From: Spirogloea muscicola
Taxonomy: Eukaryota; Streptophyta; Zygnematophyceae; Spirogloeales; Spirogloeaceae
Assembly (NCBI GenBank): GCA_009602725.1
Contig: WELB01000072.1
Location: 207,445 to 249,320, forward strand
Length of the DNA: 41,876 nucleotides
Reading direction: 5' to 3'
A model generated the notes under the pieces. It was not told the origin of the DNA, made no database searches, and saw nothing but the letters and a program-made list of their open reading frames with translations. The stretch's first letter is position 1. Every line of letters begins with the position of its first letter. Positions 2,961-37,765 of the stretch are shown one piece after another. The position numbers were made by a program, and so were the translations under genes.

Positions 2961-3440
2961 TGAAAGTGGCCCTTGCTCCCAAGGATGGGGTACAAAAGAT
3001 CGCAGAGTGCTTGGTGCTACTGGTTGCACAAGCAAGCGTTGATGAGCGTTGATGCGTGTCTGTTCATCCCGTGACACTCGAGGAATGAAATGTCCAGTCG
3101 CTAATTCAAGGCTCGGTGGCAGTAAGTAAGGCAGCCCAAAGAGAAGAAGATAACGAAAGAGAAACAGCGACACTGTCAGCACGGCTGTGCCCGCCACTCA
3201 ACTACGTAGGGAGCTGGGCGTAGATGAGGTGAAGGGCCCCAAGAATTGCCACGAGCGTAGAGATTACGAAGAGCTGTTTGCCGAAATCTGTCTATCGTGT
3301 TTCATCGCTTGGCGGGAGGCAGAGCGGCCCGCAGAGACGAGAAGAATGCCGCTGCTGATATAAAAAAATCATGTACTTGAAACAAACGTATATATAGAAA
3401 ATAGCGGCTGTAGAAAAGCCAGCAGAAGCGCAGGAAGGCG
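2961..3440. other. Spacer with a minus-strand retroelement hairpin remnant
   Basis: No gene recognised. 3405-3423 is a minus-strand version of the GGGCTGGC hairpin. The upstream motif GCTGCTGATAT at about 3350 recurs at 41630 and 41765, which suggests another degraded 3' UTR. Confidence 0.45.
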
Positions 3441-3860: not shown

Positions 3861-4549
3861 CATCATCAGCTTTGCTGTCGTGGCTAGAAAGTTCCAGTGC
3901 TCAAGGGCGGCTGTTAGCGCCAGCCGTTTGTATACAGAGCCTATCTTGGGACTACATCTACGCTACGCTATGCGCAGACTGGGCGGCTCAGGGCCCAATC
4001 AGTAGTTCGTTGTCAGAAAGAAACATAGCTCTTCCAGAAAGAGGAACTCAGATGAGCTGAGGGAGGGGAGAGGAATTCAGCTGCATAAGCTGGAGGCGGC
4101 CTCTGGATGTGAGCCTACTGCTAGCCTCTGCTCTCTACAGCCAGCAGATTGGTACTCCAGTTCTTTGTATCTGTCACACAACAGTGGCATGACTTCTCGT
4201 TGATTTGAGAAGCGAACTGACACCCTCATGTCACTCAAGGCGTCCTCGCCTTGGCTGCTCCCAAGCGCCTCTGCTGAAGCAGACACAATGCCTGCACTAG
4301 CTGCAGCCTCAGTGCCTGGCCTCTGAGAAGTTGCAACTCTTCCAAGTAGCATGCACGAGCACCTGTCAGTGCCTGCCTGTTGATGGCAGCTCAGGTGCTT
4401 CTCCTTAGCAGTTGCCCTGTCAGGTGCTGCCACAGTCTCAAGGTCTACAGGACTCCCGCTTGGCTTTGTCCTCAGAGGAAGCCAAACGCACGGCCTCGCA
4501 CAAGCTTCCTGCACTTGCTGGCTCGTCCGCTATGTACAGCTGAGGGGCG
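3861..4549. other. Spacer downstream of prefoldin 6, with an unassigned minus-strand open frame
   Basis: A 145-codon minus-strand frame spans 4077-4514, directly past the prefoldin stop. It shows no recognisable domain. Part may be prefoldin 3' UTR; the rest is unexplained. Confidence 0.3.
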
Positions 4550-5579
4550 TCAGGCTTGCATCGGCTGCGGCCCCTGCATCTGCTGTAGCCGTCCCTGGAC
4601 TTTCAGCACCTGCACATGACACAGCACCGGCACCAGAAGAGGCGTTCGCTTATCTCTCATCTGCTTCCAGCCAACACGGCAGTGCAGAGTGGATCCATAC
4701 AATTGCAGGCCTACATGTGCACCAATGCAAGGGCTCCATTGCCAGCTAGCATGGCCAGCATAGCCAGCTAACGAGTCGTGCTGTTGTCTAGCTGTCATTG
4801 CTGCTGCCGCCCGTGGCACTGTATGCTTGACCTCTGACTGACCGACCTCGTCTCGCTTGGTGTCCTGCCTTCCCTCCAGCTGCTTCAGCGTAGCATCAAG
4901 CCGCTTCCTGAGCCAGCAGAGCGGCAGTGATGGGGGGGGGACGTGAGTCTGCACGTCAATGTCAGTCTCGCAAAGATCAAGCAAATCTCCTAGACGACGG
5001 ATATTGAGGTCCTCCAGCAAGACTGAGCACTTGCAAGTATGCTGTGGCAGGCTACACTTGTCCAAGCATGCAGCAGCAACGTTGCAGCCTGTCCAAGCTC
5101 TGCCCCTAGAGGTGAGGCACCCTTGACCAGGCAGCCAGTTGCTGGGACGAGGCTGCCTGGCTAGCGACCCTGTTGGGCACCCGACAAGACGTCCTCGACT
5201 GAGGCGGGTGGGCGCCCTCAGCTATGGGCGTCCTCGCCTCAAGCCGAGTAAAGGGTATCGAGGGGCAGGCTCTCACTGCTCGGCAGTGATGTACTCGATG
5301 CGCTTGGCCACGTTGGCGCGCGCCTCCACCAGGTCCTGGCGCACCAGCACCGGCCCGATTAGCTTGTACACCGCCGCGTCGTCCTCCAGAAGCTCCAGCT
5401 CCTGGCCGCCGCCGCCGCGGCAGCCACGGCAACCCCATGGGTTCCATGGTCTGACGGTACGAGAACTCAGAGGCCTCGAGTGTCACGGTGAAGGGGCCTG
5501 GGCCCCACCTTCTGCACCATGTCGTTCTCGCTGTGCTGGATGGTGTACTGCTTGCGCATCTGGTGGTTCCGCGCTATGT
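4550..5579 (-). CDS. PFD6: Prefoldin subunit 6 (PFD6/GIM1), 5' exon missing
   Basis: Beta subunit of the hexameric prefoldin co-chaperone, which captures nascent actin and tubulin and passes them to the CCT chaperonin in the cytosol. Exons in transcript order: 5509-5579, 5277-5401, 4847-4907, 4550-4609; every junction is GT-AG with matching phase. The 105 visible codons follow plant PFD6 without gaps: KQYTIQHSEN, then MVQKELELLEDD, then VYKLIGPVLVRQDLVEA, then KRIEYITAEQKRLDA and a Gln-rich end. This is the beta-hairpin plus C-terminal coiled coil. Arabidopsis PFD6 is about 129 aa, so roughly 24 N-terminal residues are absent. The first visible exon starts in phase 1 after a (CCG)n-rich intron end, so one upstream exon is required. 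An adapter/poly-T artefact lies where it should be. Confidence 0.9.
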
Positions 5580-5580
5580 C

Positions 5581-5581
5581 T

Positions 5582-5622
<41 letters not shown>

Positions 5623-5632
5623 GCCGCCGCGA
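5581..5632. repeat. (CCG)n trinucleotide repeat
   Basis: About 16 CCG units with one CCA interruption, immediately upstream (transcript sense) of the first visible prefoldin exon. On the minus strand the run ends in a CAG acceptor, so it is most likely the 3' end of an intron. Confidence 0.8.
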
Positions 5633-5711
5633 ACAACGCGGCGAGCGAGGGCCGTCCCAAGTCAGTTCCCCACCGCAGCGGCAGCGCCGGCGCTGGCGGC
5701 CACGCCGATCG

Positions 5712-5721
5712 AGATCGGAAG

Positions 5722-5776
<55 letters not shown>

Positions 5777-5777
5777 N
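5712..5777. other. Assembly artefact: Illumina adapter core, 52-base poly-T and an N
   Basis: 5712-5724 is an exact copy of the 13-base TruSeq adapter core AGATCGGAAGAGC. It is followed without a break by 52 T (5725-5776) and the only N in the window (5777). This is read-through or gap-closing residue, not genome. Open frames across it (poly-Phe, poly-Lys) are artefacts. Contiguity across 5700-5790 should not be trusted. Confidence 0.93.
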
Positions 5778-5940
5778 ATGGCCGCCGCCGTCTCGCGCCG
5801 TCGCTGCAGGGACCCCCCCCCCCCGCCCGCCTGGGGCACCCTTTTGAGGCCTCCCCCGACGGCTCGTTGCGCCACCAAGCCTTTGAGTGACATCCCATAG
5901 CCTTGCATTGGAAGAGCCGTTCCGCTGGTCACCTTTCCTT
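5778..5940. other. GC-rich sequence beyond the artefact
   Basis: Contains an ATG-GCC-rich stretch and a run of 12 C near 5813. It may hold what is left of the prefoldin promoter or first exon, but no convincing frame joins the phase-1 exon at 5579. Confidence 0.3.
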
Positions 5941-6110
5941 GCCGTTCCGAGGAATGTTTAACACTCAGTGGCCACTTAGAGTCGCTGTGTGCTGCAGCGT
6001 TTGACTGGCCCCGTCGAAGTGTCTTCATTCCATTCCTGGGCTGGCCAATTGCAGCCGTCGCCCTCTACTGGAAAAAGATCGCTCTCTCTCTCCAGCCGCT
6101 CTGTACCTTA
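5941..6110 (+). mobile_element. Retroelement 3' UTR fragment with hairpin
   Basis: Plus-strand match to the minus-strand 3' UTR at about 40350-40460: the order CACTCAGTGGC, GAGTCGCTGTGTGCT and CTGGCCCC is shared. The conserved hairpin follows at 6038-6056. The CGTCGCCCTCTRCTGG block after it recurs near 41392. No coding part remains. Confidence 0.6.
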
Positions 6111-6741: not shown

Positions 6742-9700
6742 TCACAACTTGAGGGGGTGCAAGGCGGTGTGGATGCGCTTGAGGGCGAGGCTGATGCGGC
6801 TCCTCAGCCCCTCGTCCGAGCAGGTCACCTGCTTCATGCCGCCGCTGCCCTCGCTCCTTGCAACGACCGCAATGACGCCATCCACACTCACCCGCAGCTC
6901 TTCAGGGCCTTCCTGCACATTCTCCCGCCCATAAATTCCCGCCAGGAGCTCCTTCACAATTCCAACCTCCTTCATGCCTACCCGCTCCTCTGACTGCACG
7001 CTTTCATCACTACTGCTCGCTGTCAACCTTGCCGACTGCGTGTTGAGGTGCATAACGGTCGCAACCACCGAGTCTGCTATCATGTCACTGGTGGGGTCCG
7101 ACTCCCAGTTCAGAATAACATTCTCACTGCTAGCATGTGCAACTGGTATGATCAAATCAACGAAGTTACATCAGCACCTTGTCATTCATATACATCACGA
7201 GAATGGAGCACAGAGCATAGAAGGTCAGCCAACTTCATGTGGCTGCCTTTTATAGTTGTAGTACAACTATTTCAGACATAGATACAAGTAAAGTGCGCAT
7301 ACAATGGAGGTGATTGCGAACTGTGGATTGACACAGGCAATCAAGGCAACAAATGAGCTGCTTGTTTTGGATTGAGGTAATCCTAGCATGGAAGCTACAC
7401 ATGAGCTCCTCTACCTGTCACATTGTCAAGGACTTGAATTGTTGGCAGCTCAGCTTTGGGCACATCCTCCACGCCCTCGAACATCTGTTGCAGCCGATAC
7501 TTGAGCACTGCAACGAGCCAAGGGCAGAACACACAAGCACACAAGAGTTGACAATTGAGCTATTTGCAGCAACTAAAAGTTCCTGTAATTTCGTCTACTG
7601 TAAACCTTGCTAATGATGCTCACAAATCATGCCTGCCTTACACCCACACTATGTGCAGAATTTCATCTTGTGGCCTCAGTATATTCATGCGTTGATGCTT
7701 GTTGCATAAAGGAAAGATGCCGATGAGTTTCTCTCCAATAGATTGCCATGTGGTGTTCTTTATGATAATCAAGTGACGCCATTCTCAGCCACGGTTGCAG
7801 CCATTAGAGCTGGGTTGGTGCTTTTAAGCTGCCTTCCTCAGCCTCGAGTGCTTCAGTTGCACACCTGTGAAGGACCCCGAATAGGGCATGGATTGACGCT
7901 GAGAGACTCGGCCGGTTGACAGCTGCGTGTAGGTTTGTAGGTCCTCGGGCGCCATGATCTGGTAGCTGCAGGCCAATGACAAAGCCCACTCACGCTGGTC
8001 ATCGTCAGTCCATCATTCCAGCCTTCGGAACTTGATTGGGACACTCTAAATACATCATAATGGTGTTTCATCGAGTTATTAAGAATGCTTGGCATGCTAG
8101 TGCAAGATCACATTCACAACAAGTATGTGAGAATGGGTAGATGATGCTCATTCAGGTACTTGAAGCAATTACCTGAACCCCTTCTTGACAAGTAAGCCGC
8201 TAATGATAGTACCCTCTTTTGGTGTCACATCTGCCAGTCTGCCGACTCCCTTGGCAGTCTTCTCCCCTTTGAAGAACAACTCCACAGTCTGACAATTCTT
8301 GGGTGTCAGGATTTTGGTTTCCCTCTTCTCAAATTGCGTTTCCAACTTGCCCTGTCATGAAGAAGGTCAACCACAATTGACAAACATCCAGATATGACCA
8401 CGCTAGACAATATCATACACTGACCAAGGTCTTAGAAGCATTGGACAAATTACACCTGCCGTGTCTTCATCAAGCACTGTAATAATTAAGCTTCAAGAAA
8501 AATGGATGGATCTGCTGCAGCTCAAACATGCACCGACCTTCAATCTGCCCATCTCGTTGGCTTCACCATGGACTAGGATCACATTAGGTGGCCTCAATTG
8601 CTCCAGGAAGTCGCTTGTTTGCAGAAAGTCCGCATGAGCAGAGAAGGAAATATAGTGGACTCTCATCCGAAGGGGGACTACTTTGCCACTAGAGAGCGTG
8701 ATCTCTTTGGGCTCGTGTAGTATGGTTTTGGCCAAAGTTCCTTCCACAACATAACCAGGAATGACACAAACGTTTCTTTTGTCCTTATATCCCCGGAGAC
8801 AAGATAGTCATGAAGACAACGAAGTCCGGCAGTACACAAAACACACAAGAAACAAGAGACAAGTCAGGAGATCGCCTTCACTTGAATCTCGGGTACTCAA
8901 GTGCCAAGTGCAGGATGATGCCTTCACCCATGCAAATAAACTATGGCGTTTGCATTGACTGCAACCTGGGCGAGGGCTGACGGGATGTCATACTTGGCAC
9001 CAAGTGTCGAAGAGCTGCCGAGAGAGGCCGCTCTGCAAGCCGCCAGGACTAGCCATCACAACCGAAGGTCCATTGTCCTTAAAGTGTTCAATCGACTTGA
9101 GGCTCTGTATGTGCTTGAAGTTGAAGGGGTTCGATATTTCAAATTTCTGCCGTATGTTGTCGTTCATTGAGTTGATATAGGTTTGGTACACGGCCATGCA
9201 CTTCTTTGCCAGTGGTGAACTGTTCAGCAGATACAGGGAGGTGTAAGTCCTTGTGAACATAACAACATCAGTCAATAGTGTGGCCAGTATTCATGCTAAG
9301 TGCAGCAGCTATGTAGGCCAGTCCTGAGCTTTGCAACTGCAAATTCATCTTGCAGGCGCTTATGCGGTGTTTTCCCGCTGCAGTAGCACTCCTCATCAAG
9401 TTCCTGAAGCCATACTCACGCATAGAAGATGGGGATTTGATGGAGCTCAGGATGAGCTGCCCAGTACTCATCCAGAATGAGGAGCAGCTCCTGAGCCCTC
9501 CCTAGAGCAAATGCAGGTATCAGCACCCTCCCACCATTCAGCACAGTCTGTGAGATAATGTCTGTGAATCTTCGCTCCCTATCTCGTCTTGGTGCATGGA
9601 CTTGGATGCCGTAAGTCGATTCTGTGACGACCCAGAAGTTGCAATAAAAGCATCAGCAAAGTCATCTTACTGGAGCCAATCTTTCTTCAAACATCGCCGC

Positions 9701-16300: not shown

Positions 16301-19300
16301 GGATTGTCAAGGCACTGCCTTTCGTTTGAGTTACTTATGATTAGGCACGTGAGGTCACCGCAGGCTTAGATAAATATCGGATAAGCTCTTGTGTTGCTGC
16401 AAAAAGGTTGTCAGTGCACCTGCAAATACTAATTGCTGGCAGGTGCTACCCTGCAAGGAGGGAGGGAGGGAGGTGGGGGTGGGTAATGGGGGGCCTCTGT
16501 ATGTACTACTGCATATGATGCTATTGCACAGTAGGCATTTCACTGAAGCAATTATGTTGTTGCTCAAGGTCAGGCAACTGTTTCTGCAGGCACTCGCTCT
16601 GCAGCTAGCAATGGACATTGAGGCGAGTGAAGAGGCGCACCAGAAGCGGGAGATGCACACGAGGGCCATGCTGTGCAGCATGCTGACAAGATATGCTCCG
16701 CTTGGGATCATCACTCAGAACCCTGGCGTCCATGACCTTGTGAGCACTGACTTTATTATCAGATGCACTGAATATTGTTTTCTTAAGCACATGTACTGCC
16801 ATGTCAACAGTGCTGGGGTTGCATTTGGCAGGCATAGCTAATATACAGTACGGTATCTAAGAAATGCAACAGGCATATGCTTGCCCTTCCTTGTCATCCT
16901 GTTATTTTAATCTTGTGGGCTCCAACCATCCCACTCGCGGGTCACAGGTCCCATGTGAGGGTGCCGCTCTCATCTGTAAAGGGCAGGTCATTGTGAGTGG
17001 GACGGCGCCTCGCGAGTCAGAGGTCAGGCTTTCCCTTGCTTGCCTCAGGCTCTTATCCATTACTTCGCCAATACGGCGACCTCTGCCGTGATATATAAAA
17101 ACCTGCTTAACAACCCCTGCTAAGTATCATGCGACTTGGCATATCAGGTTGCCGACCTTGCCAAATGGCTGCTGGAGAAGGACGATGTTGAAGAGGGGGT
17201 CTACGTGACAAACAGCCTGGAGGGCGCAGGTTACCCTGGAGCTGCAGCCCTCGGGCCTACCGTCTGTGGCCTTGCTGTTGCTGTGGTCAACAGAGAAGGG
17301 GACCTGATCATGTGGTTTCGGAGTGGTAATGTTCACATTCCCTCTTCGTCGTCCATACACTTGGTCCTGAGTCCCCACAAGGCTATGCAGTACTAGCTCC
17401 ACATCTGCAAGTAGTTTATGAGGGCTAGAAGTACATGCAGTATTACTGAGCGCTTAGTGTCTTAGACATCCTCTCACGATCTGCTCACCGTTGTTTGTAG
17501 TTGCCCATTCTCTCTCATCTACCTAGCAATTTTTTAATGTTGCCATGTTGTGCATACGCACAGGTATTGCCCAGACCATCAAATGGGCTGGTGATAAGTC
17601 TACACACGCTCCGCCTGATGGCGTCAATCTCCACCCTCGCTACTCGTTCGACGCATATTATGAGATAGCCCGCCAGCAAAGTCCTGCGTGGGAAGATCCA
17701 GAGGTATATGTCACTGTAAACGTGGTCTGTACAACCAAGTGTGGCAAGAAGGTTCAGCTGGATCCTTTGAGTGGGTAGGCTGTGAAGATGCTGGGGAAGC
17801 CAACAAGAAAGCAAGATAAGCTCCCAGCAAGCACTGCACCACTGATCAAAGATTTGAAGCTTTCATGGAGCAGATTGAGATGATGCAAATGCTGAGGCTG
17901 CTTGTAAAGGACTCGCTGCCGGAGAACCCAGACTTGTATGCTATTCGTTTTAAGATTCAGGTATACCAATGGAATCACCTCGTATGTGGCATCACTACCT
18001 TGAGTGAAATGTAACATGTCCCTTTAGATGTTGACCAGTCACTTCAGACCATCTTTGAGCACTCAGATTTGCATCTCTCACCTTGTATGGTTTCAGTCAC
18101 CTAGCATGAGAGTGGTGCATTGTGCGGCAATTATTATTCTTGACCCTGCTCCTTGCCTGGTAGAATTCGCCGTCAGATAAAGCTTGGGAGACGGCTTGAG
18201 AGGACTTAGTGTCAAGAAGTGCAAATTACACAAGCCACTTTGGGTTATGTTTCTGGACAGTTCTGAAGTTTTGCAATTCGTGTTTGACTGTGACTGCTCT
18301 CTTGATCGGCAGACCCATCTCAATAATGAGCGTCTGAAGGTTCAGCGGCAGCTCATTGAAGTCTCGAGGAAACTCCACTCTGGCATGGAAGGCGCCAGAA
18401 CACCAGTCATTGGACTCTCTGGAAGTTGCAATGTGTATGAGTGGAATACTCGCGCAAGCAAGCTGATGCAACTTGATAAGGTAGCAAGCTGTGATGGCAC
18501 TCGCGGTCCAAACACGTGGAGATTTGAGCACCTGAATGTGTATGACTTTGGTCAATTCGACTGACCTATCACAGTACCCTGGCTGCTGGAACCAATTAGC
18601 AGCTAGAAGCTGTCAGCTGAAGCACACCAATCCGTTGCATATGAGGCTGTGTCTCATTCACTTCACAACCCTTTAAAATGCTCAACGCCGTAGGAGATAT
18701 TTAATCAGCTGCTCATTGCAACTGTCAAGCTTCAACATGATGCTGATGCTTATGTCATGCTGCTACCTTTTCTGCTCATACCTTCTTATTGACGCATAAT
18801 GATGTTGCTGCATTGCAGGGTGCTGTCATGGGGAAGCCATTTTCGTCTGTCATTGCAGAGGAGTCTCATGAAATCTTCCGACATGCCCTCGAGGCTGTGT
18901 CGGCTGGCAATGAGCTGGAACCCATTGACCTGTGCCTGAAAGCAGGTGATGGAGACCGCCTGTACCTCCTCATGTCGCTCTATGGCCAGCACGACATGCA
19001 TGGCAAGCTGGTGGGCATACGGATGGTGGGCCAGGACATCAGCCTCATCAAGCTCCTCTCTAGACAGGTACTTTTGTCCCAAGCAGACAGGAACAAGGGC
19101 CTAGCATTAACAAACAAGATTTCGGCTCTGCAGTTGATCTGTTGATTGCATTTTCCATCATTCTCTGGGTAGTACTGGCCTCTGTGGCCGATCAGGCGCA
19201 ATGTACATGGGCTGACTTTGTTGGTGGTGCTCCTCAGGCCCAGCTGGCAGGCGCCGAGTTGGGCCGAAGGCTGGACGGAACAGACATGCTGGCCTTTGGG

Positions 19301-21905
19301 ATAGACAAGGACTGGAAAATAACACAGTGGAACCGGCACATGGAGGAGGTGCTGGACATTGGCAAGGACAATGTGTTGGGGAAGCACCTGATACGTGACG
19401 TGCTGAAGGGCAACCCCATGATTATGGACCCGGTCTGCACAGTCTACCGTACTGCCACTCACATCACTGTAGTCAAGCTTTGCATATGATAAGCTCGTGT
19501 CATTTCCGTGATTCTTTGCTCTGCAGGCAATTGGGAGATACGGATCTTTGACATGATGAATGTACGAGTAGGACCACACTTATATGTCTGGTGCTGATAT
19601 TGCTTCTAAGTGGCTGCCGTCAGACTTCTGGTTGGGTTATACTCTCCAACAATTGTGGCGCCTTTGTGGTCGTACTTGGGCTGACAGTGCTTGCTTCTCT
19701 TACTTCAGGAAGATGCCCTTGTTCTGTTTGACATTGGTCTTGGCCAAGCCCTGCAAGGTCGCGACCTCCGGAACCACGAGTTCCGCTTCCGCACCATGGA
19801 TGGCCAACAAATGGACACTCTCTTGCACGTCATCTCCAGGTATTCACACATTCAAGCATTGCTCTTATTGCAGGGGCAGATCTGCTTGACTTTACGAATG
19901 TAGTCATGGCTGTCATGCCACTAATGTCCAAGTGACCAATTGCTTGATGATTACTTGACTGCGAAGCCTATATTTCACTGATTTTTGTATGCTGCTTGGA
20001 ACAAAATTAGGCTGGACACGAGCAAGGTACCAGTAGGAGCAGTCTGCTTCTTGCAAGACATGGTGGAGAGGAGGACAGCTGAGAACGCAACAGCTGTGCG
20101 GATCGTTGGCGAGGCTGCATCACATGCAAAGACTATGCAGCTGGCCTGTCTCTGCCATGAGGTTTGTCCCTTCCTGCATTTCTGCTTCCATACTGTATGA
20201 TGGCAAGCTTTTTTCCATGAAAGCTTGCCAAAGAACCTGGGAGGTTCATAATGTGACTGCAGCGGTGGACAAATCACATCAACATTGTTCAAAATGCAAG
20301 TGCAGATTAGTAGCCCTCTCGATGGAATCTTAAAGAGCATCAAGTACATGGAGGACACAGAAATGACACGACAGCAGCGGGAACTGGTGGCTACTACTTC
20401 AGTTTGCGGGTAAGGAGTGACTTGCAAGCTGTCTTCCATTTTCTGTATCAAGGCAATTTGTGCTTGAGCCAAGGCATGCCTTGACTTATCTTGTCCCTCA
20501 CTGTTGGGGACAGGTTTCAGCACATTGCGGTACATATGCGGTGTTGTGTTAAAGAGTCGTCCTGTCTGCCATGAAGTCCATCAGCCCTTTCCAGCAACTT
20601 TCATATCACTTGCCACAGATCTTCAATCATCCTAATCTCCTTTCCTCTGCAGGGAGTTTCTGCAAGGAGTTGTCCAGAACATGCTAAACGCAAGCCTCAT
20701 TCGAGAGGGACGACTTGAACTTCTCACTGAAAATTTCATGCTGTCACAAGTCATGAGTGAGATATTAGCGCAGGTGACAATCCCCAGTCTAGTGAGGGTG
20801 CAGTCACATGATTGAGGAGTGATGGGTCACCCAATAACAGCTGCATGTTAGGTTGACATGGGCAAGTCGTGTATATCAGATTTGTCTGCATGTACCTGAA
20901 GTCAGCCGTTCTTCCCCAACAACATTCGATGGAGGAGGGATAGATGCCGCTGAATGGGCTGCAGTGGACTATTTTATCTGACCTCTGCTCGTTGTGGACA
21001 TACAGGAGTCATCTCATGCGCTGGAGCGGGGGCTGAAGCTGTATGGCACACAGGACCCTGCCTGCAACAGTGCCATAGTCACTGGGGACAGCCTCAGAGT
21101 GAAGCAGGTCGTGGCAAACTTCGCGAGGAATGCCGTGGAGAGCACAGCCGTAGGCTGGGTTGAGATCAAGCTGAAGGCAGCAGCCCCCTCCAAGGAAGGG
21201 ACGTTCAGATTCATCTTCAAAGTCTCCGACTCTGGCAAGGGCATGTCTATGCAGCGACTCACTGACACCTTCGAGATGCAGCCGCAAGACCGGCCAATCA
21301 GGGCCAGGTGCGTGCTGGTGAATCATTTCTTTGTCATACATTTGACTAGACAATGGCCCTGCTTTGATATGTTGCATGGCAGCATGCTCATTGCTTGCTC
21401 ACAGTGGCTGGCTGATCCAAATAATCTCAGTGAATGATTAGTTTGTGTCTGCAGATTGAAAGCTACTTCAGTATTAATCAAGCTTTATCAATGGAATTAG
21501 CTAGAGTATGTATTCAGCATTCTCTTTGTTGAGCTTTTCTGGGAATGTCACCATCTGCGAGTGTAGGCAGCAGCTACCTACGCTGATGTTTGTCTGATGC
21601 CTTGTGACAACAGGGGCTCTAACCCGGGGCTTGGCCTGGGGGTCTGCAAGAACCTCGCCAAGATAATGGGTGGCAGCCTCTCATTCGAGTCTCGAGAGGG
21701 GCAAGGCTCAGGCTTCTCCCTCGACCTCGAGCTGCCACTCGCACCTCCAGGAGCAGAGGTCCACAACTCCAGTGATGCGCTGATCGAGCAGGAAGGCGTA
21801 ATCCACACCACCATCGGCGAGTGGAGTACGACAGAGCAGCTTCAGGCAGCGCAGGTCGTGAGCCCCACGGCGCCGCCCTTCTGGCCCCTCAAGCCACCCA
21901 GCTGA
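13337..21905 (+). CDS. PHY: Phytochrome copy 1 with histidine-kinase output (24 exons, 1170 aa)
   Basis: Red/far-red photoreceptor. Exons: 13337-13501, 13783-13947, 14126-14230, 14369-14450, 14715-14789, 14941-15059, 15266-15334, 15469-15543, 15748-15874, 16071-16258, 16590-16739, 16948-17022, 17148-17325, 17564-17703, 17874-17960, 18313-18480, 18819-19067, 19238-19432, 19709-19839, 20011-20161, 20306-20409, 20653-20773, 21006-21307, 21614-21905; all phases join and the frame stays open. Domains: PAS ~85-195; GAF ~215-390 with bilin-binding Cys332 (GCHKEY) and NDVP for the usual DIP; PHY ~391-571 with PRYSF at 549-553; PAS repeats ~600-740 and ~740-850; HisKA with His897 (CHEISSPLDG); HATPase with Asn1015, DSGKGM and GLGLGV. 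The first 55 residues lack the usual Ser/Gly-rich extension. The tail ends soon after a GEWST motif. Confidence 0.93.
16457..16493 (+). other. G-quadruplex-prone run in phytochrome 1 intron 10
   Basis: Five or more G-triplets separated by single A/T bases (GGGAGGGAGGGAGGTGGGGG, then GTGGG), followed by a G6 run. It fits the G3+N1-7 pattern. Intronic; any role is unknown. Confidence 0.6.
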
Positions 21906-28172: not shown

Positions 28173-31100
28173 CGCGGTACAAGAAGAACTTCTCCGGGGC
28201 GCAGGCGGCGACCGATGCGCGCCTGGACTCGGACTACGAGGCGCACTCGCGCGCCGGCACGCCCCGCAGCTTCGACTATAAGGGCCAGGTGGTGCAGCAG
28301 TCGCGCCTCGTGCAGCACTCATGGCGGGTGCGCGCCTCAAGCCTTGCTCTCCCCTTCCTCCCAGCCTCTCATTTGCTGGTCTTTCGTGGTCGTTCGACTG
28401 TCCACTTCCGCTCGCGCCACTCGTAGACGCCGACATTTGCGATTGTCGGCGATCCCACACCTACTGCTTGCCCCAAGGCAACCGTGAGTTTGATCGATGA
28501 TCGACTCATCCCCGGGCGTGGTCGGTGCTACTGCTGTTACTGGTGCTACTGCTCTTTGCGTTGTGGAAATTGAGCAGCCAAAGAGAGCTTAGAGTCAATG
28601 TGGACGCGAGCAGTGCTCCACTTGTGCAAACCTGGGCTGTGTGAGGCTGGGCCTGAAGGGCACTCGGTTGCGGTTAGCTACTCAGACTTGCACCTCCTGA
28701 CTAGAGGTTACTGAGCGTTCCCTGGCTGATGTCTTAGTCCTAGTTCTTCGCACTCCGGCTCCTTCAGACCTTGTCCTTTCCTTGGGGCTGGCCTTTCCCA
28801 GCCACCAGTCAATCTGGCCGCGCTTACTCTCTGTTGTGGCTCCACCTTAGAAGGGCACTTTGCTTGCGCAAGTGAAACTATCAAGCTATTCTCTGACTGT
28901 TTTCTGAGGAGGGTGGATAACGCTTGCTGCTAAGCAGCAAGCATTACGGCATCATGACGTTGTTTCACAGAAAGAGGGCAGCAAGTGCCTATGGCATGCA
29001 GCACAGTCGTCATTTTAGTCAGAGCTCGTGTGCAGCCTTAGGAAACGGTCCTGTCAAAGTGTACAGACTGTGTCATCTGTAATGAGGTGACCGAGTTTTG
29101 TGAGTGCTCTGAGACGTGGTAGATGGCCCCAGGCACGTGGCCATTGGGGACTTGCGGGCATGACCCTAGTACATAGTCTTTACTGAGCAGGAGAGGCATT
29201 TGCTCCTATTCCTACTGCAGATGCCAATCAGAAACCGCGCGCAGGAGGCGAGCAGGCACATGGAGGACCTACCAGATGCTGCAAAGGAGGTCGACGTGGC
29301 TGCCTATTTGCAGCACATGCAGCGCCCTGGCTTCATCCAGCCTCACGGCACTCTGCTGATGGTCAACGAGCAGTTTCAGGTCACAGCTCTGCCTTTGTTC
29401 AGGCTTGGACTTGGAAATGGGATGCACAGTAGGTTGGCACTCCCAATTGGGTTTCGGTAATCTTCAGCACACATGATTGTTGCATCTCCAGTGCATATCT
29501 AGGTGACAGACAGGCCGTCAACAACATTTGGCGTCCAGTATATTTTGCTTGCTGGCACCATAGACGTGAATTGAATGTCTGAGTTAGAGGACTGAAGAGT
29601 ACTGAAGAGTACTGAAGAGTACTGAAAAGATCATCAAATAGCTGAGCAGCATCCCTGTTTATGCATTGCAGCACTTATAGATTTTTCACACAGACAGTGG
29701 CATAGTGATGGATTTGTTGAGGGCTTGGAATTCTGTAAACATGAGGCCTCCAGTCTTGCATAAACTCACTACAACAATTACACGCCTCTTAGGGCTGTAA
29801 TGTTGTTGCAACTGGCAACCATGCAGATCTTAGCTGCAGCTGGAAATGTGTGGCACTACGTGGATGAGGAGTTCGAAGGTCAGCCAGTGCAGGCTCTGCT
29901 GGGCCGGGACGTTCGATCCTTCCTGATCAGTAATGTAAGCATCCTGCCTCTTCTTGCCAGCAGTATCGAGTCTGTACCCTTCCTAACATGGCTGCCATAT
30001 TCTGCATCATTGGTGCAAAGGGACTACGTTGCATGGGTTTCCTTCTCAGGCTTGGCCCTATCACCACTAGCAGCTGCAAGCTTGCAGATGCTTGCTGCTG
30101 CTCAATTGTATTATAAATTACATGAATATGTACTGAGCTTCACATGTGTGCTTGTCTTCAGTTACCAAATGCCTTTGAGACAGCGTTCACCTATGATGAC
30201 ATCAGTATAGCAAATCCATTGGTCGTCAGGACGGCAAAAGCACGTGAGCTCTTGACAGCCTTGGTGGGGACAACTGAGTAGCACCACATATTAATGTCTG
30301 CTCACGAAGAGGTCTGACATGCTCGATGCAAAGCTACAGCCTATATGCCCCTTCCATCTGAAGTATTGTGTCCACGTGCCAATCATTTAAGATAATTAAA
30401 TGTTGTTTGGTTACTTGTTGCTGCTCATTTATGCTTAGGGCGGCCAATCTATGCTATAATGCATAGGTTGCAAGAAGGTGTTGTCATTGATCTTGAGCCA
30501 ATTGCAGCAGAAGGTATGGGAAGTACAGCTGACTTCCTCTGCTGGTTTCATGTCTTTCTCCTTCATGTGGACAATAATTCCTGATGAAGTAGCAGGAATG
30601 AAGTTGATGATACATTCATAAGGTGGACAGTGCAGGCAGAGGCAGACAAAAGTTGAGGTACATATCTGACAAGCAATGGGAGTCGCTTACACTGCTAATC
30701 AATCCCTTTTGAGCTGTGACAGAGGCAAATGAGATGGAGGAAAGAGCTCTGGAAAAACACGACAGGGCGAGTGCCAGCATTGCAATATTGCAAGCTATGT
30801 CTTCTGCTGGAATCAGCGACTTGGCTGAAACGGTTGCTAAGGTGCTCAATACAGCCTTTTGTCGGTGACCAAGTATCGCAAAAGAAGCCTCGAAGCCTCG
30901 AAGCCTCGAAGCCTCGAAGCCTCGAAGCCTCGAAGCCTCGAAGCCTCGAAGCCTCGAAGCCTCGAAGCCTCGAAGTCTCGAAGCCTGAAGCTTTGTAGCC
31001 TTGACGCCTTAAAGCCTTGAATTTGAAGCCTTGCAGCCTTGCAGCCTTGCAGCCTTGGAGCCATAAGCCTTGAGGATGTGAGGTTATCCATTGATCGAAA

Positions 31101-34100
31101 GTTTGCAAAGTGTCCAGCATTGCTGAGTAGCCTCTATAGCGATACTCCCACAGCTGCTGTACTTAATCACAACATATGTCTGCCGTTGTAAGCCTCGTAT
31201 GCTTTTGGCAATTGTACATTGCGCACCAGGAAATAAAGGCCCTCTCTGGTTATGATAGAGTCATGGTGTACAAGTTCCACGAGGATCAGCATGGAGAGGT
31301 GCCATTGCCCTTCTGAATATTCTCCCCTGCCTGTAATGTGCACAACAAGTTGAACTTTGAGATGGTTGCGCTCATTGTGTTGTCTCTGACGCGCTGCACA
31401 AAGCTGTTTTGCCAGGTTACAAGCCGAAGCTATGCCTTTTGTCGCGTGTTTGTGTACGAGTCCTTACCTCCTTGATGTTTAAAATATGTCCCGTAGGTCA
31501 TTGCCGATGCTAAAGAAGACTGGCTACCTACTCTGCTTGGTCTTCATTACCCTGCAAATGATGTGCCCCAGGTAAGGCCTCAAACACTTGATGTGGCTGA
31601 GAGTGGTTACATCTTGCAGATGCTGTACAGTTGCTGTAAGCTGCTGTTTGCATTGTGTATATACGTGCACACAGCTTCAATTTGCTTCTTGCAGCTGTAT
31701 GGGTGCCCTTGTCTTGCTGCATTTTGACTTTGAGCAAGGTCTTTTTGTATGCAATCTATAGGCAGCAAGGGAGATGTTTGTACAAGTGCGCTTACGGCTC
31801 ATCTCAGACATGGACGGCGTAGATGTTGAGATCATACAAGACACTTCCTTGGAGAAGCCCATCATCTTATCACGATCTACTATGCGAGGTTGCAACGATG
31901 TACTCAAGGCTTGGCGGGCATATGCTGTGTTCTGCATGCCGCTAGCTGTCATTACGAGCTACACAGTGAGAGTTTACCGAGGGCATCTGCAGACCATTAG
32001 TGGGTCTGAATTGGATCACTCATGTATCCATCATCACCAGCTCAACTGCATCCAATTTGACGTGCTACTCTGATTTCTGGATGGCGGAACTTAGGAGTTG
32101 CTGGCTGCCACAAGGAGTACTCGAAGAACATGGGTTGCCAAGCCTCGCTGGTTATGGCAGTGGTCGTCAATGTTGCTCAGGCGCGATCGCTGAAGCTGTG
32201 GGGCCTTGTTGTCTGCCACCACCACTCTGACAAGCGTGTCTTGCCGTACCCTCAGCGGTATGCCTGTGATTTCATAATTCAGGTATGCATGTCTACATGC
32301 CGAGAGACCAGCTTATATGCAAAATATCGTGCTATGGTGCCTTCTTCTTCTAGAAGCAGGGGAATAGAGGGAGCAGGCCCCTCACCATCGCAAGATTGCA
32401 TCATCTACTTGATCAGTGCGCAGCATTTGAGTGTAGGTAGTCATTCAACAGCATGGTGTCGATAGACTTGACCAATTGTAATTGGATCTTTGTTTTTCTG
32501 CACTATTTCTAAGGCCCTTCATTGCAATCGTGTGCAGGCATTTGCTTTGAAATTAACAACGGAAATTGAGTCGGCGGAAGATGTAAAAGATAAGCGAATT
32601 ACTCAGACGCAGGCCGTTCTTTGTGGGATGCTTACTAGAGACGCTCCGCTTGGTCTTATCAAGCAAAAGCCCAATATCCTTGACTTGGTGAGTAGTACAT
32701 CGTGTCATGCCTACAAGTATACTCTCATTCATTGAAAGAAGGAACCTTTGATCGATCTGAGTTTTGTTGCACCATACTTTGCCGACGGGTTTGCTAAAGC
32801 TTGCAGCAATTGACCTTCCATCGTCAGGTCCCAGCTGATGGAGCAGCTCTTATCCATGCTGGCAAGGTCTACCCTCTTGGCTCTGCTCCCAGTGAAGAAC
32901 AGGTTGGCATCTGTCGTTTCAAAGCCTTCCTGCTTGGCTGCCAGCTTCGGTGCCTTTTCCCCATAGTGACTTCACTATGATGAGGTCTTAGTTATGTACA
33001 TATCGAATTCTCATGTCATAAGCAAAGTGTGGCATTGCAGATCCTGGATCTGGCCAAGTGGATGACAGATATGAAGGGCGCCAGAGGACAGCGTCTTTGT
33101 GAGCAGCAGCCTTGAAGTAGCTGGTTACCCACGTGCCTTAGAGATAGCTCCTGCTGTCTGTGGACTTGCTGCCTCTCCAATCTCAGAAACAGGGGGCTTT
33201 CTCATGTGGTTCCGCACTGGTAAGCTTGTCTGCACTTATGCAGATTAGACTGCACGAAGCAATCATCACAAGACCTCCCTGAATGTCATGCCTTTATGAG
33301 AGAAGGGTTTGCAGCACATGGACATGCTATAAGTGGTGCTCACAGGCAGCATCTCCACTTTGTCCAGGCGTCACCAAAACCATCAAGTGGGCTGGAGACA
33401 AGGCTTCTCACAAAGTCAAGGAGGGCGCAAATATGCACCCCCGTCTGTCTTTTGATGCATTTCTGGAGGTTGCAGGCCAGCAGAGCTCTCCATGGGAGGA
33501 CAGTGAGGTCAGTCATTTATTGAGCACTATGCAGGAAGTGGTCATCCCTGTGGTCATTCCAGTAGTGAGGTGCTATGACTAAGACAAGAATGCAATCTTC
33601 ATGTCATGTGCAGGTTGATGCAATGCAAGGTCTCAAGCTGATTGTACGGGACTCTCTTCCTGATCCTGCTGTGAATGACCTCCGATTGAAAATTCAGGTG
33701 TGTACTAATAGAATGTCTAGCAAATGTGACCGGCCAGTTTAAAGCTGTTATTAGGTATTAATTAACATCATAACAAGAGCTCCTTAGTGTTCTTAGCCAT
33801 GATCCAATATACTACAGCACTCCTATCACGTATATCAGTATTTGTTGCTCCACTTGTCCAATATTTCAGCCTTTCAGCAGAGACAGAGAGCACCTGATTT
33901 GTTGCTCCACTTGTCCAATATTTCAGCCTTCCAGCAGAGACAGAGAGCACCTGAATAATAGCCCCAGCTATGGAGCAAGTCAGAGTACTATGAACCATAT
34001 ATATGTAGGCACACTTGACATGATTACTTGATGACGTCATTTGCAGACAAGATTGAATCAGGAGCGTTTGAAGGTTCAGAAGCAGCTGTTGGATGTGGCT

Positions 34101-37100
34101 CGCAACCTCCAGACCGAAATGGAGACTGCAAAGACTCCCATCATTGGCCTCTCAGGAGCTGGGGAAGTGCTGGAATGGAACATGAAGGCGTCGGAGTTAA
34201 CAAAGCGCAGCAAGGTACAAAGCTCGTGATATATGTGCCATTACGTGCAAGTGGGGGATAAACTGCAGTACAAGCACTGACCTGTTACAGTTGTGATGTA
34301 TTTGACCCCAATTTCAAGCTCGATCAGTGCCTGCACACACCTGCCAAATTCATTCCTTCTACTTCTACCTGTGTGTGCAGGAGAATGTAGTAGGACAAAA
34401 TCTTCTCGATGCAGTACTCTGTGAAGAGTCAAGAGATGACTTCAAGATAGCCTTGAACAAGGTGATTGAAGGAGTCGAAGTAGAGCCAGTCGATTTGTGC
34501 CTTCGGGCTTGCACCAAGGAAAACGGACCACTTGACCGGAAGCTGCACCTTCTGAGTACCTTTTATGGTCACCATGATGTTCATGGTAACCTGCTTGGTG
34601 TTCGTATGGTGGGCCAGGATATAAGTACCATCAAGCTCCTCGCTGGCAATGTTAGTCCTTTTGTACCTACCCAGCTTGCATCAGTGTTCCATGTACTAAT
34701 AATCCTGCCAGTATTCTGGGTCTTTCCCTGGCTGTCGGTCACTTTCTCTCTTAAGGACTTGACTTGGAATTGGTACTTGGTGCGTAAACAGGTTACTGTG
34801 GGGCTGGAGGAAACGAGCTCGCTGTTGGACCAGGCTGACATGCTAGTGTTTGCAATTGATGAGACTTGGCGCGTTTGTGAGTGGAATGCGAGCATGGAGA
34901 AGTTGAGTGGTGAGGCGGGATGAAGTCCTGGGCAAACGTCTAGTGGGGGAAGTTCTTAGCAGCTCCCCCATGATCATGGTGCCAGAACCAGTAAGTCTCA
35001 AGCATGATCCACAATCTGGTCAATTTCTTCCGGGATTCTGATGACTTAAGGCTTATTAGACAGGCAGAGGTCACAACCAGGTGCACAGAGTGTGACGATG
35101 CAGGTACTTCAGGCCATCCACATGCTACAGTTGCAGAGGCCCAACCCAGTAACTAGGCATATTAGTATCAGCATACTGACGAAAATGTTAGTCACCTTCT
35201 GGCAGGACTCGCTTGTGAGCTTCGAAATTGGTCTATGCCAGGCTCTGCATGGACAGGATTCTCGCAACCATGAGTTTCACTTTCAAAGTCGGGACGGGAA
35301 GCAGATGGACACACTGATGCACATCATTAGCAGGTACCTGAGACCTTAGGTCTTGACGGCTGTGTGCTGATTGTTTGGACATTGTCAGCAGGACGGTTGA
35401 GGTGTGCGTGAAGTGTCATACATTGTATCATGTGGGTACATAATGCTACGTTACATTGGAGACGTGCACAAACATATCTTGAACTTCACACTCTCACCAT
35501 CAGCAAAGGTCATGTCATACTAGTGACTTTTGTGTTCTCAAACTTTTCTCATTGCTTGCAATAGGAAAGGGGAGAATGGGGAGCCTGTGGGAGCTACGTG
35601 CTTCATGCAAGACATGTTGGAGAGAAGGGCAGCCGAGAATGCGTCCGCAGTTAGAATAGTTGCTGAGGCTGCATCACAGGCAAAGACGATGCAGCTAGCC
35701 TGTCTCTGTCATGAAGTACGACACTGCAACTTGTCTACCCTATACACCGTTCATGTTTTATAGCTTTTTTTGGTGTTCTGTCATACAGAAGCCTGTCAAG
35801 CTGCATGGTAATGTCTTCAATTCCGTGCCCATCAGTTCAGTTGCAAATAGGTCACCTGCATTGCAGCTACTTCTCAGTATGCATGCTCCTCTGTGCCAAT
35901 TCCAAGTTGAGTATCTAAGATGGGTAGCAAATATTATCTCAACACCTTTCTGTCTTTACAGATACGCAATCCTCTCAATGGCATATTGAGCAGCATCAGC
36001 TTTATGGAAGACACCAATATGACTTCTGAGCAGCGAGATCTTGTTCTTACGACTGCTACTTGCGGGTACGCAGAAAACTACAGAAGAAGGCTTTGTTTTT
36101 CATATGCTTGCAATTCTTGTGGGTAAGTTTAAGTGAAGCTTGGATGCTGCCTTATTCAGCCATCTTCTTTAATTCATTGCTCCTCTGAGTCACCAGAAAG
36201 TACCTTCGGCAAGTGGTAGACGACGTACTAGACTTGAGCAAGATCGAGGAAGGAAAGTTGGAGTTTGACGAGCTCGAGTTTCTTCTAGAGGAAGTCCTGG
36301 AGGCGGTCCTCGCGCAGGTCAGTGGCATCTCATCAAGCTTGCGCTTCTCATTGTTGTTGTGCTGTAGAAGTGGTCGAGTTCAATGTATCCTTGCCTATGA
36401 GGTAGCTTACAGAAATGGTTGGTGACTATCCACCTTTCTCATCTTCACAGGAGGCCTTCGCCGCCTTTGAGAAGGGACTTCAGCTCTACTGCGTCATGGA
36501 CCCAGCGTGCGCCAACGTCTGCGTCAAAGGCGATGGCCTCCGTGTGCAGCAGATCATTGCCAATTTTGCAAGAAACGCAGTGGATTATACGACTCATGGG
36601 TGGGTGGAGATCAAGCTCCAGGCAGCTGAGCCACAGAAGCCAGGCAGCTTCAGATTCCTCATCAAAGTCTCAGACTCTGGCAAGGGAATGTCAGCTGAAC
36701 AGCAGGAGACCATTTTCCAGGTGCCAGAACAGCCACCAGTGGATCATCCAAACAATCGGTACGTGCCATGTCAAGGAAGCCAACTGCACTCATGGAGGAG
36801 GTGCAATCGCAGTACGATCAGTGTGATGATCATGGGAGTCTCTGTTGCTGTTCTCAAAGCACGCAAGGCAAGTGAAAGTTCCTTCTTGCATGGCCTGTTG
36901 ATCATTTTCATTGCCTGTTGCATGCAGGAGGTCGTTTGGCATGAGCGGTTTGGGGCTCGTTGTCTGTCACAAGCTTGCCTGCCTGATGGGTGGCAAGGTG
37001 ACCTGCGAGTCTCGATTGGGTGTTGGCTCCTGCTTCTCGCTCAACCTGGAGCTCCCCCTGCAACTGGCGCCCAAGTCGGCGAGCACGCTCTCAACAGCAC

Positions 37101-37765
37101 TCCTCAGTAAGGACGCTGCGGAGCTGGAGAGCAGCAAGCGGGGCGTGATATATACGAATGTGGGTGAGTGGAGCTCCAAGGAGGAGCTTCGTGCGGCGCC
37201 GGTGATGGGCCCCACGCTGCTGCGTGCTCGGGAGCTGGTGGAGGTGAGCGAGGAGGCGGCAGTCGGCTCGTCCGCAGCTCCTGAAGCCAGGTTGTCGCCA
37301 GCGACTGCGGTGATGGTACGCCCCAGTGGGGTGGAGAGCGAGCAGGAGGCAGGCACTTCATACACTCCGGTAGTCAGTCCTCAAGACAGACACTGGGAGC
37401 AGCCGCAAGCAGCTAAGCAAGGAGAGGCTCCGCAGGCATGCAACTTGAGGCAAGCGGAGGCGGCCTCGGTGGCGGACGTTGCCGCGCACGACGCACTGCG
37501 GCACTTGGAGGCGCTCTACAGCGGGAGGGTGGCCGTGCAAGTGGTACGTGAGGTAGTGGAGGCCAAGGAGGTCGCCGTGCTCCTGCAAATACACCTCCTC
37601 GACCCCCACAACGGCAACCGGCTGCTGGGGTCGCTCACGCAGTGGGGCTCTGCGCCGCGCCTCAGCACGCTCGGCGAGACGCTGCGCGCCGCGACGAGGA
37701 GCGCACTCATCGCTGCCACACATGCCTTCACGCCTCCCTCCTTACCAAGCCCACCTGCTGATTGA
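28109..37765 (+). CDS. PHY: Phytochrome copy 2 with histidine-kinase output and long C-terminal tail (24 exons, two frame slips)
   Basis: Paralogue of copy 1. Exons: 28109-28327, 29221-29379, 29827-29934, 30162-30243, 30439-30513, 30723-30841, 31230-31298, 31497-31571, 31762-31888, 32095-32282, 32538-32687, 32828-32902, 33041-33219, 33368-33507, 33614-33697, 34047-34214, 34381-34650, 34792-34990, 35206-35333, 35565-35715, 35962-36065, 36197-36317, 36451-36758, 36928-37765. The N-terminus has a poly-Gly tract, then [15 protein letters not shown] and SFDYKG as in plant phytochromes. Bilin Cys349 (GCHKEY), PRLSF 566-570, His920 ([11 protein letters not shown]), acidic [13 protein letters not shown], Asn1038, DSGKGM, GLGL. 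About 200 extra residues follow a GEWS motif. Exons 13 (near 33077-33088) and 18 (34917-34919) each shift the frame by +1, giving stops at 33113 and 34921; otherwise ~1377 aa. Sequencing error or early pseudogene. Confidence 0.9.
28130..28175 (+). repeat. (GGC)n encoding poly-Gly in phytochrome 2
   Basis: In-frame GGC repeats with one AGC interruption code a run of Gly near residues 10-20, in the flexible N-terminal extension. The length may vary between strains. Confidence 0.8.
28676..28850 (+). mobile_element. Retroelement 3' end inside phytochrome 2 intron 1
   Basis: Reads [11 protein letters not shown] and stop (28678-28713), then a 3' UTR with hairpin 28784-28802. It is the intact-sense counterpart of the degenerate copy at 2780-2960. 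It sits in intron 1 in the sense direction and does not disturb an exon. Confidence 0.7.
29589..29630 (+). repeat. 10-bp tandem repeat in phytochrome 2 intron 2
   Basis: About four copies of ACTGAAGAGT, the last degenerate. Confidence 0.85.
30884..31075 (+). repeat. 8-bp minisatellite in phytochrome 2 intron 6, with degenerate tail
   Basis: Eleven perfect head-to-tail GAAGCCTC units plus one GAAGTCTC variant (30884-30979), followed to about 31075 by looser AGCCTTG units of 8-9 bases, including three GCAGCCTTG in a row. It starts 43 bases after the exon 6 donor. There are no spacers, so it is not a CRISPR array. Confidence 0.95.
33841..33954 (+). repeat. 57-bp tandem duplication in phytochrome 2 intron 15
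   Basis: Copies 33841-33897 and 33898-33954 differ at a single T/C. The near identity points to a recent event. The unit contains a polypyrimidine-AG stretch that could mimic a splice acceptor. Confidence 0.93.

Follow-up and report, generated by a model that had tools for sequence, protein, structure and literature searches.

The adapter motif and the T run that meet a single N in a contig of Spirogloea muscicola are almost certainly artefacts at an unclosed scaffold gap, in an assembly to which Illumina reads contributed at least in part, where a GC-rich first exon stayed unassembled and the gap was probably filled with an adapter-bearing read. The window, the whole stretch of DNA that was analysed, is 41,876 bases long and corresponds to C72:207445-249320. 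Its letters at the site are as follows.

5712-5724, plus strand: exact match to the Illumina TruSeq adapter core AGATCGGAAGAGC, an artefact that reads into the gap
5725-5776, plus strand: homopolymer of 52 T, gap-edge filler and an artefact, from a repeat and homopolymer scan of the window and a genome-wide comparison of A/T runs
5777, no strand: single N, the sole N of the window, an unclosed gap

The sequence-only reading had placed all three elements exactly. Position 5777 is the only non-ACGT letter in the window. The T run is its longest homopolymer, followed by a run of 12 C, and is anchored in sequence on one side and borders the N on the other. The name of the 13-base core and the sequences of the two arms that can follow it are those we take to be TruSeq. 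The 13-mer is the sole match in the window even when up to two mismatches are allowed. Since 1.15 matches would be expected by chance at that tolerance, the weight rests on the exactness of the match; by our arithmetic, both strands of 41,876 bases with equal base frequencies would yield an exact 13-mer about 0.001 times. No base of either arm continues the 13-mer at this site, so the arm cannot be named. Such a continuation is not required of a truncated adapter residue. The site resembles TruSeq adapter contamination in carrying the common core, which both known arms follow at other sites, and it differs from fuller contamination in keeping just the 13 shared bases.

The distribution of the 13-mer across the assembly points to the same origin. 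The 153.1 Mb in 471 contigs hold 63 exact copies, compared with about 4.6 expected by chance at equal base frequencies (our arithmetic) and with none for a control 13-mer of reversed letters in the same assembly. These counts bear out the earlier statement that a chance occurrence is very unlikely. There are 45 forward and 18 reverse copies (binomial p = 0.0009). The plus strand of a scaffold is arbitrary, and a real motif should show no preference for it, as directional gap filling could. All 63 sites were read together with as many as 300 flanking bases per side, the window's own copy being taken from the window. A run of N begins at most 160 bases 3' of the 13-mer at 56 sites, of which 27 have a single N as the first gap, and at one more (L057) the contig ends two bases beyond the adapter. 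Thus, 57 of the 63 copies lie at a gap or a contig end. As a rough background, 16 stretches of 3 kb were drawn at random from 39 of the 471 contigs, each of which bears adapter, and 2.2% of their non-N bases were no more than 173 bases away from an N run; the figure is based on five N runs, three of them 2.6-3 kb long and possibly withheld sequence. Mean GC content over the 100 bases that precede the 13-mer is 80% across the 63 sites, versus 55.6% in the random stretches. Given the count of 63 versus 0 and the placement at gaps, a chance match at the window site was rejected.

What follows the 13-mer is also informative. At least three bases of one of the two arms continue it at 43 of the 63 sites, where we estimate about two by chance, and exact continuations of every length from 0 to 12 bases are present, those of a single base being ambiguous where they open a poly-A run. 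Such a spread of lengths would be expected from variable-length leftover adapter at read ends. Six sites have neither a gap nor a contig end nearby (L005, L009, L010, L040, L043 and L053). In three of these (L010, L040 and L043) a TruSeq arm continues the 13-mer for 9-11 bases, and L009 leads into 13 A; all four therefore look like residue within closed sequence, and adapter copies are not all at open gaps. The remaining two, L005 and L053, have no arm continuation and an upstream GC content of 55% and 53%. They look like genomic matches in our judgement, so the 13-mer by itself is no proof at every place, and matches of this type would be false positives in an adapter screen. In both L005 (on C6) and L053 (on C183) the 13-mer occurs as GCCGTAGATCGGAAGAGCTGTT, perhaps a shared repeat. 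By this sorting, which is our own judgement, 61 of the 63 copies resemble leftover adapter, whether at the edge of a gap, at the end of a contig or in a closed join, in keeping with the earlier claim that adapter had become fixed in the assembly. The figure of 63 covers the complete 13-mer and, with shorter residues possible before poly-A, is likely a lower bound. The 7-base word of the adapter stands directly before 24 T once genome-wide, on C96.

The T run belongs to a second and larger class of gap-edge sequence. With sequence on their left, there are 294 forward and 295 reverse T runs of at least 30 bases, and with sequence on their right there are 285 and 327. The anchored ends of A/T runs thus total 1,201, a sum in which a run flanked by sequence on both sides enters twice. 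A sample was formed by the first 20 runs listed, all of which read as T outward; runs reading as A outward were sampled solely at adapter sites. An N adjoins 19 of the 20, and the remaining run, of 33 T, stops 47 bases short of an N. The adapter word AGATCGG is absent on either strand from all 20 stretches. Poly-T is therefore a separate gap-edge product, and the window's T run is a common one that stands behind an adapter residue by happenstance. Nine of the 20 runs are 122-124 bases long and none is longer than 124, which is also the length of the longest tail at an adapter site. This constant limit suggests a ceiling set by software or by read length.

An alternative would derive the adapter and the 52 T from one molecule, with a short insert read through into the adapter and on into a dark-cycle tail. 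It could explain why the adapter adjoins the homopolymer here and why an A run (13 sites) or a T run (19 sites) of at least 20 bases occurs within 60 bases after the adapter at 32 of the 63 sites, although at one of these sites, L018, the run sits beyond the N. Direct read-through, however, predicts a whole adapter ahead of the tail, instead of 13 bases here and 0-12 continuation bases elsewhere. Tails of both A and T are also at odds with it, as are the sampled poly-T runs, nearly all of them at an N and none with the adapter word. We regard this origin as improbable.

Some of the fill appears to be shared between copies of a locus. Six pairs among the 63 adapter sites have the last 20 bases before the adapter in common. 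In five pairs, the aligned parts of the flanks are 91-97% identical, yet the match is perfect over the last 30-103 bases; in the sixth (L020/L024), identity extends across all 300 bases. The pairs L016/L042 and L021/L047 are similar by eye but fail the test of identity over 20 bases. At the paired sites, it seems that the same read, with its adapter, was placed in two copies. Bases next to the gap at paired sites, among which the window's own site does not appear, may stem from the other copy.

The conserved gene next to the gap, said in the sequence-only reading to lack its first exon, is an ordinary chaperone gene, that of prefoldin subunit 6, on the minus strand and has exons 2-5 within 5579-4550. 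Exon boundaries are predicted from GT/AG signals.

5509-5579, minus strand: exon 2, the first in the window (DIARNHQMRKQYTIQHSENDMVQK), with matches in C72, C48 and C146
5277-5401, minus strand: exon 3 (ELELLEDD...EYITAEQ)
4847-4907, minus strand: exon 4 (KRLDATLKQLEGRQDTKRDEV)
4550-4609, minus strand: probable last exon (VLKVQGRLQQMQGPQPMQA, then a stop), read from translation alone
5778-6069, minus strand: far-side sequence, upstream of the missing exon 1, from alignment to both other copies

Exon 4 has matches in C72 and C146, and none is listed for C48 at E <= 0.001. The gene matches profile PF01920 with 63 bits against a cut-off of 27.6, and joined exons 2-4 match prefoldin subunit 6 (PDB 6nr8, chain 6) over 85 residues (E 2.2e-18). 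The three minus-strand frames of 5990-5501 show no N-terminal exon, which is missing from the window owing to the gap. The ATG at 5778-5780 was considered as a start codon and rejected; on the minus strand, GGCGGCGGCCAT continues as upstream sequence in both other copies. The upstream neighbour of the prefoldin gene is marked by a CPSF73-100_C domain on the minus strand (6742-7170, 70.7 bits), the 3' end of a gene for a pre-mRNA 3'-end-processing endonuclease.

Two further copies of the locus show what the gap has removed. They lie on C48 (L074) and C146 (L075), with a DNA identity of 89% and 87% to the region 4500-5711 of the window. An excerpt of PMC11547041 describes a whole genome triplication in S. 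muscicola, and the three-fold prefoldin locus fits such a triplicated genome. On the near side, L074 (with its N at 3002) matches as far as window position 5668 and L075 (with its N at 3051) as far as 5707, the window's own edge being 5711. On the far side, 5773-6069 aligns with L074 2864-2597 (79%) and L075 2941-2651 (85%). L074 shows the beginning of exon 1, with an ATG and MAAAATRELQRQLDAAA that run as far as the N, and MAAAAARE is readable up to the N of L075. On the far side of the gap, the window's sequence stops upstream of the ATG that can be read in L074, which places the missing exon 1 of the window within the gap. The loss of the first exon, which had been deduced from the window's letters, is thus supported by the start of exon 1 in an interval absent from the window.

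The other copies, too, are each interrupted by one N, at most about 50 bases from the corresponding spot. Neither stretch contains the adapter word or an A or T run of at least 12 bases. The absence of the T run bears on the poly-Phe and poly-Lys frames listed in the window, which are spurious, as had been proposed. For the 100 bases on either side of the gap, GC content amounts to 79% and 78% (window), 85% and 82% (L074) and 83% and 77% (L075); the failure lies in the same GC-rich stretch in all three. A rival view is that the adapter itself caused the break, with contaminated reads misleading the assembler so that exon 1 was removed. The adapter does sit exactly at the break. Both other copies, however, break nearby without the adapter word, which implicates the local sequence and makes this view improbable. 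Single-N gaps lacking an adapter in both copies indicate that the adapter is probably a symptom of the failed assembly of the GC-rich exon 1. The sequence-only reading is therefore to be refined in two respects: poly-T is uncoupled from the adapter, and the adapter is probably a symptom rather than a cause.

The far-side alignments extend five bases past 5778, across the N and four T's; on the minus strand, 5773-5777 reads CATNAAAA in the window, opposite CATCAAAA in the two other copies. Either these final four T's are real sequence or the agreement is coincidental, and in both cases the adapter and the rest of the run are unaffected. This alignment of four A's beside the N, and the existence of genomic-looking matches such as L005 and L053, speak for a real 13-mer match beside a real poly-T, for example a retroposed poly-A tail, a reading with next to no probability since the T run lies directly at the N, neither element is in the two other copies, both associate with gaps genome-wide and run lengths top out near 124; a genomic poly-T was rejected on its absence from the other copies.

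The preferred explanation, an unclosed gap with an adapter-bearing fill, can be laid out as a series of events, in which we infer the software step, the origin of the T run and the causal role of GC-rich drop-out. The minus-strand prefoldin-6 gene would have lost its GC-rich first exon during assembly. Gap filling would then have lengthened the contig at its left edge, using a read with its 3' adapter still attached, of which 13 bases survive, and a spurious T run would have been appended after this residue. The fill would not have reached the opposite side, and one N would mark the unresolved join. The GC-rich drop-out is likely the root cause, with adapter and poly-T as its symptoms.

A related loss is known from vertebrates. 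The part of PMC8081667 on which we draw reports that earlier assemblies miss 5' UTRs and first exons, to a degree that follows their GC content. The case here is alike in that a GC-rich first exon is lost at a gap; it differs in that the organism is an alga with three gene copies, all broken near the same spot. Judged by their titles and abstract openings, none of the published accounts found is on point for adapter or homopolymer at gap edges. The chances seem evenly balanced that, in this triplicated assembly, many genes have lost a GC-rich first exon at much the same place in each of their three copies and one read was filled into several copies. If so, apparent 5' truncations, losses of genes and contrasts between subgenomes close to gaps would amount to systematic artefacts wherever the assembly is used to study the origin of land plants.

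The relevance of the site is one of quality control only. Frames crossing 5712-5777 are not genes, and the prefoldin-6 annotation should read 5'-incomplete. The assembly needs masking of about 61 adapter residues, by our sorting, and about 1,200 homopolymer ends. Left as it is, the site could invite a biological reading of its poly-Phe or poly-Lys frames, or of the first exon that is lost.

Over the window as a whole, neither Rfam at gathering thresholds nor ARAGORN with the bacterial code gave a match. A RING-H2 finger exon lies on the plus strand at 1315-1734 (zf-RING_2, 53.2 bits). Two neighbouring plus-strand stretches, 18747-21437 and 34306-37765, contain PAS and HATPase_c (histidine-kinase-like) exons, the HATPase_c match at 36902-37765 being slightly below its cut-off. 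These are perhaps a tandem pair of phytochrome-like sensors, a label that we assume. Repeats include an array of 17 copies of the 8-base unit GAAGCCTC at 30884-31021 and two tandem copies of a 57-base unit at 33840-33954 that match at 98%.
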